Shown in pieces: positions 56,819 to 63,558 of a stretch of DNA of 64,000 nucleotides; position 1 is the stretch's first letter; every line of letters starts with the position of its first letter. Origin of the DNA: an uncultured Pelagibacteraceae bacterium (GTDB lineage Bacteria > Pseudomonadota > Alphaproteobacteria > Pelagibacterales > Pelagibacteraceae); the NCBI GenBank assembly GCA_902593285.1, contig CACJHW010000002.1, forward strand, positions 1 through 64,000. Reading direction: 5' to 3'. The notes beneath the pieces were generated by a model. It worked only from the letters and a program-made list of their open reading frames with translations, made no database searches and was not told where the DNA came from. A program made the position numbers and the translations under genes.

Positions 56819-57631
56819 TTAATTTTTACCGTATTCAGCCCAAGAGCCATCGTAAATTGTCGGCTTATATTTAGCATTTATTAAAGAATAAGCTAGTGCC
56901 AATACACTTGCAGTCACTCCAGAACCACATGAAAATACTAGATTTTTATCATGGTCAAATTTAAAGGACTTAAATTTTTCCATTATTTTATCTTTACTAA
57001 CGAAAGAATGGTCTTCGTTTACTAATTCAGAAAAGGGTAGGCAAAAAGAATTTTTTATTGAACCACTTCTAAGACCTTTTCTTGGTTCAGCAACTTTGCC
57101 TTCAAATCTTTCTCTACTTCTTGCATCAACAACATTAAATTTACCTGTATCAATATTTTCATCTATTTGTTTTTTATTTTTAACAAGTTCTTTATTTTCT
57201 TTACATTTATACTTTGATGTTTGAGTGATCACTTTTTTGTTATCTGTAGATTTATTTTCTTTTTTCCATTTTTTTAATCCACCATCTAGAACATGAACTA
57301 GCTTAGCGTCATGTCCATAATAAATTAAATTATACCAACATCTACAAGAACTAATAACATCAGAGTTATCGTAAACTACTATTCGATCATTATTTTCTAT
57401 ACCCATATTGCTCATTATTTTTTCCCAAGATTTAGTATCGGTAAGCATATGTGGTAAATCAGTATCTAATTTGGAATTTTTATCTAAATCAAAAAAAATA
57501 GCATTTGGAATATGTTCCTCTTCATATTCCCTAAAACCGTTTCTTTGAGTTTGAGGCATATGCCATGAGCAATCAATAATTTTTACTTTATCAATATTAT
57601 TTTCTAACCAACTTGTATCAACTAAAGACAT
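56819..57631 (-). CDS. sseA: 3-mercaptopyruvate/thiosulfate sulfurtransferase
   Basis: This two-domain rhodanese protein of 270 residues transfers sulfane sulfur to acceptors such as cyanide or thiols. The C-terminal active-site loop is CGSGVT with Cys235; this CG[ST]GVT form marks 3-mercaptopyruvate sulfurtransferase rather than thiosulfate-specific rhodanese (CRxGxT). The N-terminal domain starts VDTSWLENNIDKVKIIDCSW and lacks an active cysteine loop, as usual. msrA follows one base later, so both may act in sulfur repair or redox metabolism. Confidence 0.92.
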   Translation of the reverse strand: MSLVDTSWLENNIDKVKIIDCSWHMPQTQRNGFREYEEEHIPNAIFFDLDKNSKLDTDLPHMLTDTKSWEKIMSNMGIENNDRIVVYDNSDVISSCRCWYNLIYYGHDAKLVHVLDGGLKKWKKENKSTDNKKVITQTSKYKCKENKELVKNKKQIDENIDTGKFNVVDARSRERFEGKVAEPRKGLRSGSIKNSFCLPFSELVNEDHSFVSKDKIMEKFKSFKFDHDKNLVFSCGSGVTASVLALAYSLINAKYKPTIYDGSWAEYGKN

Positions 57632-61195: not shown

Positions 61196-61683
61196 TTCTT
61201 TAAAATAATTTTATCTTTTTTAAATTTATAAATAACAAGATTGTTTCCTTTTCCTTTTCTATCAACAATTAGAAAATTCATATCTTTCATAGAAATCAAC
61301 GGAAAGTGCCAAATACCAGCATTGTAATTAACCCCAGTTTGTTTTGGTACTAAAAAGGATTGGATTTTATTTACATCTGGTTTATCTCCTTTTGGTGCTA
61401 CAAATACTAAAAATTTTGTATCTTCCATTGGTATAAAAGCTTGGCTTCCTAAAGGATGTTTTTCCATCATATCAATTTTCATAGGAAACTTTCTTTTTTT
61501 TGCTTTAAAAATACTAACAATTGCTTTCCCTTTGTTTTTAGATGCATCTAGGTTTATCAAATTATCAAATCTTTTTGCATACCCATCATTAATATTTATA
61601 GGATTTTTTTTTGACGTATTTATTAATTGACCAAATTTAGAAAAATTTTTTTTATTAATTTTTTTTGCTTTTATTATTTTCAT
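61192..61683 (-). CDS. allA: Ureidoglycolate lyase
   Basis: AllA cleaves ureidoglycolate to glyoxylate and urea, the last step of allantoate breakdown. The 163-residue cupin-like protein shows KNPININDGYAKRFDNLINLD near 26-46, MMEKHPLGSQAFIPM and PDVNKIQSFLVP. GVNYNAGIWHFPLISM is also characteristic of the family. It overlaps puuE and the allantoicase gene by four bases each, so all are likely one transcript. Confidence 0.92.
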   Translation of the reverse strand: MKIIKAKKINKKNFSKFGQLINTSKKNPININDGYAKRFDNLINLDASKNKGKAIVSIFKAKKRKFPMKIDMMEKHPLGSQAFIPMEDTKFLVFVAPKGDKPDVNKIQSFLVPKQTGVNYNAGIWHFPLISMKDMNFLIVDRKGKGNNLVIYKFKKDKIILKK

Positions 61684-62667
61684 TTCACAAAATTTCCGAA
61701 TGCCCTTATTCTTGAAATTCCACCGTCTGGATAGATATTAATTCTAAGATAATTTTCTTTACTTCTCTTAATTAAAAATTTTTTAAAAATATGTTTCTTG
61801 TGAGCTGACAGTTTTGACTTATTTAAAATAAACTTCCAATTTTTTGAATTGTTGACAATTGATTTATTGGAAAGATCTTTTGAAATGCTTGCAGTTTGAA
61901 TTGAACAACTATCGGGATAGTTTCCTTTAAAATGATGGGTATCTATCTCTAGCTTTTTTATTAATCCTGGTTTTCCAAATTTTATTATAAGCCAATCAAA
62001 GTTTTTTCCTCTACTTCTTCTTGTTTCCCAACCATCTCCCATATTTTTCCCTTTACCAGGTGCTATGATATTTTCAGCTTTGCCGAAATGTTCATTATTA
62101 CAACCAATAATTGAAGCGCCATTTAAAACAGATGTAAGGTTAATAGTTTTGTTATTTAAAAAGTTTTTCTCCATTTCAATTTTTCCATAAAGCCTTAGTC
62201 TTGCAACTCCACCATCTGGAAAAATGTTTAGTCTTATATAATTAAAAACAGATTTTTTGTTTGATTTGAAGCTATGGTTTTGGCTTGGCCCAAGTTTTTT
62301 TTTTGCTCAGTAAGGAAATCCATTTTGTCTTCTTATTAGGCTTTGTTTTACTTAAGCAACCCTCTAAAGAAGCATATGTGGGTTGGTTTCCATTGAAGTG
62401 TGTCGTGTCAATGTCTATATCAAATATCTTCCCAGGTTTACCAAGTTTTAAAATTAAATAATCAAAACCTTTTGATCTTCTTCTCCTTGTTTCCCATCCA
62501 TCCATCCATTTACCATGTTTGTCAAATAGTCCGTCTTTAAAAACTGGAGTTTCGATGTTTAATATTCTATGAGCAGCTGCAAAAAAATCGTCAGTCTTAA
62601 ATATAACTTTAGATCCAATTCTTGGGTCCGCTAAGTTAATCATTTTTGCACTTATAAATTTTTTCAT
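61680..62667 (-). pseudogene. alc: Allantoicase, split by a frameshift at a ten-A run
   Basis: Allantoicase hydrolyses allantoate to ureidoglycolate and urea. The family is two tandem homologous domains of about 160 residues, and both are present. The first frame (62667-62272) contains DGWETRRRRSKGFDYLILKLG. The second (upstream of 62174 through 61680) contains DGWETRRSRGKNFDWLIIKFG. The first runs to a TAG at 62272-62274 after ten A residues (plus-strand T run 62295-62304). In the second frame, coding continues from that run without a stop: LGPSQNHSFKSNKK, then RLNIFPDGGVARLRLYGKIE, matching YLRINIYPDGGISRIRAFG in the other domain. Nine A residues would restore one ~328-residue protein. It may be a real mutation, a sequencing error, or a frame rescued by slippage. 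Confidence 0.85.
62295..62304 (-). other. Ten-A homopolymer at the allantoicase frame break
   Basis: On the coding (minus) strand AGC is followed by ten A residues and then CTTGGG. Reading frame one gives Ser-Lys-Lys-Lys-Thr-Trp; loss of one A gives Ser-Lys-Lys-Lys-Leu-Gly-Pro and joins the downstream frame. Runs of nine or more A are known sites of RNA polymerase slippage in A/T-rich bacteria, and are also common sequencing-error sites. Confidence 0.85.
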
Positions 62668-63207: not shown

Positions 63208-63558
63208 ATGACAAAGCTCACAACTCATGTTTTAGATGTGTATTCTGGTAAACCTGGCAAAGGTATCCTAGTTGAGTTGTTTTATATTAATAATTCAGAA
63301 CGAAAAAAATTAACGTCAACAAAACTCAATGACGATGGTAGAGCTAATTCACCATTAGCTGAGGGAGATATTTTTATTAAGGGTAAATATGAATTAGTTT
63401 TTCATATTGGTGATTATTTTAAAAATACATCTGCAGCTAGCGATGTTCCATTCCTGGATGATGTTATTATCAGATTTGGTATTTCAGATCCCTCACAGCA
63501 TTATCATGTTCCTTTACTTGTTTCACCTTGGAGTTATTCTACTTATAGAGGTAGTTAA
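63208..63558 (+). CDS. uraH: 5-hydroxyisourate hydrolase (transthyretin-like)
   Basis: UraH hydrolyses 5-hydroxyisourate, the immediate product of urate oxidation, to OHCU. The 116-residue protein begins LTTHVLDVYSGKPGKG with the active-site His7. It has a central HYHVPLLVSPWSYSTYRGS and ends in the diagnostic YRGS tetrapeptide. It has no signal peptide, so it is cytoplasmic. The start of xdhA follows directly after its stop, and divergent uraD lies upstream. Confidence 0.96.
   Translation: MTKLTTHVLDVYSGKPGKGILVELFYINNSERKKLTSTKLNDDGRANSPLAEGDIFIKGKYELVFHIGDYFKNTSAASDVPFLDDVIIRFGISDPSQHYHVPLLVSPWSYSTYRGS

Follow-up and report, generated by a model that had tools for sequence, protein, structure and literature searches.

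An allantoicase gene split at a run of ten adenines in a Pelagibacteraceae draft genome: probably an artefact, with a recent mutation confined to one genome as the rival

The allantoicase gene (alc) of an uncultured Pelagibacteraceae bacterium is found, in the 64,000-nucleotide stretch of DNA analysed here (the window), as two open reading frames that meet at a run of ten adenines. The question raised by this locus is whether the run marks a gene that still yields some full-length enzyme through slippage of RNA polymerase, a gene that has been lost very recently, or a base that was added on the way from the cell to the assembly. The draft genome from which the window derives comprises 1,041,777 bases in 37 contigs, is 79% complete, and is probably a single-cell genome, to judge from naming habits; the window opens a contig (C2) of 270,809 bases with 28.7% G+C.

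The gene sits in a purine-catabolism cluster in which uraD, alc, allA and puuE follow one another on the minus strand with a 4-base overlap at every junction. The open uraD gene (OHCU decarboxylase, PF09349; 62664..63161) shares 4 bases, at its stop codon, with the start of alc, the whole split alc gene spans 61680-62667, the start of allA (ureidoglycolate lyase, PF04115; 61192..61683) overlaps the alc stop by 4 bases, and the series is closed by an open gene for a puuE-type allantoinase of the polysaccharide deacetylase family (PF01522; 60296..61195). A divergent pair on the plus strand begins at 63208 and consists of hiuH (5-hydroxyisourate hydrolase, PF00576; 63208..63558) and a 2Fe-2S subunit or domain, probably of xanthine dehydrogenase (PF00111 and PF01799; 63559..64000), that runs off the window. 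The SAR11 purine-catabolism operon described in the available part of PMC11698098 has the same gene set as this cluster; the name puuE is taken from that operon, and the xanthine dehydrogenase label from the same source together with the gene neighbourhood. Within the genus, alc was found in 108 of 399 genomes, many of the 399 being incomplete.

Both allantoicase repeats (PF03561) are present in the window, and a single reading frame for the two is lost in this assembly at 62295..62304, where the minus strand carries the ten adenines (T10 on the plus strand) and domain 1 is shared out between two frames. The first ORF (62272..62667, minus strand) encodes 131 aa from its start to a premature stop codon 20 bases beyond the run and matches positions 1-113 of the 155 of PF03561 (E 1e-31), that is, domain 1 without its last quarter. 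The second open frame (61680..62306, minus strand) has 208 codons and holds the end of domain 1 (PF03561 107-154, E 1.8e-12) and all of domain 2 (PF03561 1-154). The description of the gene in the original prediction was therefore accurate on both counts, the halves lying in different frames that meet at ten adenines and the second frame staying open up to the run, just upstream of which it opens. Judged by the strength of the domain matches (E 1e-31 for the first ORF and 3e-47 for the part of the second that follows an internal ATG) and by the open gene in all 48 distinct relatives of more than 93% identity, a frameshifted alc is more than a product of chance.

That internal ATG, at 62174, would give an ORF of 164 aa covering PF03561 1-154, and one could accordingly see in the two ORFs a split allantoicase made of separate subunits, of which the second has a whole domain of its own. 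The first ORF would then be a subunit whose domain lacks its last quarter and with it the PDGGVARLRLYG stretch, which can be aligned with the solved allantoicase 1SG3; no split at this place is seen in any of the 48 distinct close relatives, so that this arrangement is scarcely credible.

Comparison of the locus with close relatives, proposed together with the original prediction, drew on the best 80 of 533 relatives found, these 80 being draft genomes that by name belong to SAR11, and on the sample of 399 genomes of the genus, with which the 80 loci have genomes in common. When alc was compared by blastn with all matching loci, and the window's own copies (L001-L003) and identical rows were removed, 97 distinct sequences were left, 93 of which cover the site. 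The longest run of adenines at the site was nine in 67 of these, shorter in 24 and ten in two distant sequences (L103 and L012), both of which are open across the run. Among the 48 distinct sequences more than 93% identical to the window gene, 47 have nine adenines, one has an interrupted run and all 48 are open. The A10 motif itself occurs in a single one of the 399 genus genomes, the window's own, and the matching A9 motif in 40, in 38 of which it lies inside the allantoicase places listed; of the other two genomes, the motif of G451 is left unplaced by that listing, and in the second (G003) the motif lies elsewhere, on contig C1, with the allantoicase on contig C7. The 48 distinct relatives of more than 93% identity thus all lack the A10 frameshifted state. 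Conserved or programmed recoding was rejected, since every one of them is open and one of them, like several distant sequences, has an interrupted run.

The same picture holds for whole genes: in the best 80 relatives, all 77 uncut copies of alc keep a single frame, which argues that the site is not a frequent place of error. Six odd or partial copies were inspected among the matches listed for the 108 genomes with alc, the window's own included, and five of them are cut by contig ends. In the sixth, that of G270, the first 69 alc codons run, as judged by eye, into the end of a xanthine dehydrogenase-like subunit (L145, on contig C20), the rest of alc up to its end being found on a different contig (L148, on contig C38), as a chimeric join or an inversion would leave it.

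Little can be read from the gene itself that would suggest an old loss. The nearest intact relative (L057) is 99.0% identical in DNA, with one gap and nine substitutions, of which six change an amino acid, and a search for a second lesion along its codon columns returned neither an internal stop nor a second indel, in agreement with the earlier remark that the gene carries no further damage. Within the set of 48 distinct sequences, two substitutions (H98Y and N137K) are private to the window, and both change an amino acid, with none silent, as the relaxed selection that follows a real inactivating mutation would allow; set against the private changes of the other 47 sequences (80 amino-acid and 98 silent), however, this ratio of 2:0 is not significant (Fisher P = 0.21), and tyrosine at position 98 occurs in relatives too. 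A decayed pseudogene was rejected on the same grounds, there being no further stops or indels and no significant excess of amino-acid changes. As clear signs of decay are missing from alc, the extra adenine would be either very recent or not real.

How often such a change appears in drafts of this kind was estimated in three ways. In a gene-by-gene comparison with one contig of the relative G460, which replaced a looser list of 20 frame-change candidates on the contig, 171 of the 213 G460 proteins were placed on the window contig and 42 had no match; 170 of those placed were whole and one, alc, was split. The reverse comparison placed 172 of the 264 window contig proteins, 171 of them whole, none split and one partial, with 92 lacking a match; when the far-end stretch of the contig was searched in three relatives, only short weak pieces were found, in two of them. 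Further differences from G460 were noted along the way. One lies within the window, where a single-base difference at 56828, near a stop codon, alters the end of the gene at 56819-57631 (270 codons, as against 272 in G460); another lies about 3 kb past the window, where C2:67279-67301, late in a 771-codon ORF, holds 18 extra bases, in a region with a run of 12 adenines just ahead of the next ORF.

The second estimate was taken from five genes of the cluster in the best 80 relatives, which makes 400 possible copies, of which 23 without a match in the stretch covered and eight cut by an end were left out. Three of the 369 uncut copies are split, in two of the 80 loci, namely allA and puuE of one genome (L087) and uraD of another locus (L051), and all three owe this to single-base changes at runs of adenines.

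The third estimate used ligA, which encodes NAD-dependent DNA ligase and is essential in bacteria, cells with a broken copy being expected to be inviable. A match was present in 304 of the 399 genomes; the 19 copies with two matches or a weak one were looked into, and the other 285 were judged from a single strong match and taken as whole. Of the 19, fifteen run off a contig end, one is whole and the remaining three have a broken frame in the middle of a contig, at or beside a homopolymer: in an adenine-rich stretch in G042 (L166), twice at long runs of adenines in G065 (L159), where the far end returns to the first frame, and at a run of guanines in G166 (L165). This makes three broken copies among at most 289 uncut ones, a count that may be low, as several of the full-length matches listed have one or two stops in the matched stretch.

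Split rates in the three comparisons are therefore 0.6%, 0.8% and 1.0%, or about 1% per gene copy, with wide and overlapping intervals that rest on few events and on sets that share genomes (the coordinates show G166 and G460 to be one genome). A homopolymer error of draft assembly would be expected to strike essential genes as well, and singletons of this kind are indeed seen there. Because ligA is essential and yet appears broken at a similar rate, most of these singletons would be technical, and a background of about 1% is more likely technical than biological in origin. Indels are mentioned for amplified single-cell assemblies in the accessible part of PMC5519541, which gives no rate for them.

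Against this background, the explanation that we favour, and hold to be probable though well short of certain, is that alc is an ordinary SAR11 allantoicase gene and that the extra adenine would have entered the draft as an error of amplification, sequencing or assembly; the singleton in the window is probably technical for the reason that most singletons like it appear to be. If so, the cell probably carries an intact alc. The original prediction had named error as the main rival to a very recent loss, and both fit a change that is private to one genome in a gene otherwise undecayed, with the background now tipping the choice towards error. A generally error-ridden assembly was rejected, as 170 of the 171 compared genes are whole, and elsewhere the assembly is clean at its homopolymers too: the ORFs of the contig contain 119 A/T runs of at least nine, of which only the run in alc is known to be disrupted, and genes of the same contig with in-frame runs of ten (dnaG and ligA) or 13 adenines (murE-murF) match their families across the runs. 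The last of these is a murE-murF fusion of 947 codons that lies outside the window (L136:15895-18738, equal to C2:195894-198737). It is this otherwise clean assembly that makes a real slip in one cell a serious rival. Such a private, recent replication-slippage mutation from A9 to A10, inactivating alc in one cell, is a possibility to be kept in mind although we consider it rather unlikely. Runs of adenines are described as hotspots of slips in the available text of PMC3017870, alc is accessory to judge from its presence in 108 of 399 genus genomes, and the other compared genes of the contig are whole; what stands against it, apart from the private substitutions discussed above, is that like singletons occur at a similar rate in the essential ligA.

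A real frameshift might also be tolerated, if RNA polymerase slipped on the run and produced some full-length messenger, as has been proposed for Buchnera and Blochmannia. The setting is one in which this could happen, with ten adenines, a frame that is otherwise intact and an AT-rich genome; in many bacterial genomes, according to the part of PMC1088944 available, selection against slippage becomes visible at runs of nine, which are treated there as prone to it, about 30% full-length transcripts from frameshifted genes are reported in earlier work cited in the text seen of PMC3017870, and deletions in Buchnera runs increase with run length in the corresponding part of PMC5574713. The direction of the slip is less favourable. 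Where close relatives with nine adenines have AAA AAA AAA CTT, the window has AAA AAA AAA ACT, so that the full frame would be regained only if the RNA lost one adenine or gained two, or if the ribosome made a +1 step. In the available text of PMC5574713, transcription errors in A/T runs are mostly gains of a single base and losses, the direction needed here, are rarer, homopolymers accounting for 151 of 157 transcription insertions in Buchnera as against 16 of 57 deletions. The parallel with Buchnera drawn in the original prediction is moreover contested by that genome-wide RNA error study, the part seen of which reports zero transcription errors that restored a reading frame. Nor do the genes of the contig avoid such runs: sense runs of nine, ten and 11 adenines number 64, 27 and 11 in its ORFs, against 69.7, 29.2 and 9.6 expected from synonymous-codon shuffling. 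As these counts lie near expectation and only runs of at least 12 are scarce (3 against 11.2 expected, with none of 200 shuffles as low), one reading of them is that a run of ten carries little cost on this contig and would not be strongly prone to slippage. Runs of eight are in excess there (219 against 175.6). With the A10 state not conserved, the required direction the rarer one and runs of A9 to A11 not avoided, rescue by slippage has gained no positive support and appears very improbable for alc. Still more doubtful is the idea of a reversible switch set by the length of the run, on at A9 and off or leaky at A10, with which SAR11 cells would control the end of purine breakdown that concerns carbon and urea, with some full-length enzyme made by slippage.

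Taken together, the most likely account of the extra adenine is an artefact, and the next a recent mutation private to this genome; the gene affected is an ordinary one, and its frameshift gives no pointer to a new mechanism. The original prediction holds in its observation on the sequence and in its caution about error, and its rescue by slippage is the part that appears improbable. If the adenine is an error, homopolymer frameshifts at about 1% per gene copy in AT-rich drafts can mimic gene loss or recoding, and claims of metabolic loss in SAR11 that rest on a single genome therefore need relatives or reads. If the adenine is real, one cell would have recently lost the last part of purine catabolism, the breakdown ending at allantoate with the earlier energy-yielding steps still possible. 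Among the titles and abstract openings of the literature found, none deals with homopolymer frameshifts in SAR11, and a search for work pairing Pelagibacter with transcriptional slippage returned none.

The system closest to the window gene is the alc of the SAR11 purine operon, which, in the available text of PMC11698098, likewise stands together with uraD, ureidoglycolate lyase, puuE, hiuH and xanthine dehydrogenase. Two PF03561 domains are common to both, and the difference is that alc occupies a single frame in the close relatives examined, whereas in the window assembly the frame is split by one extra adenine. Genes frameshifted at poly(A) runs in Buchnera and Blochmannia (one Blochmannia genome has eight frameshifted genes), possibly rescued by slippage according to the part of PMC3017870 available, resemble the window gene in having a single indel in a long run of adenines, in a gene otherwise intact and an AT-rich genome. 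Some of those cases are common to different lineages and have transcript support cited in the same text, whereas the window change is private, belongs to a free-living bacterium and is known here from DNA alone. The 'pseudo pseudogenes' with runs of 9A or 9T share with it a frameshift in such a run that slippage could in principle correct; there, in the portion of PMC1088944 consulted, a non-slippery A8 becomes a slippery A9, and here a run that is A9 in open relatives stands at A10.
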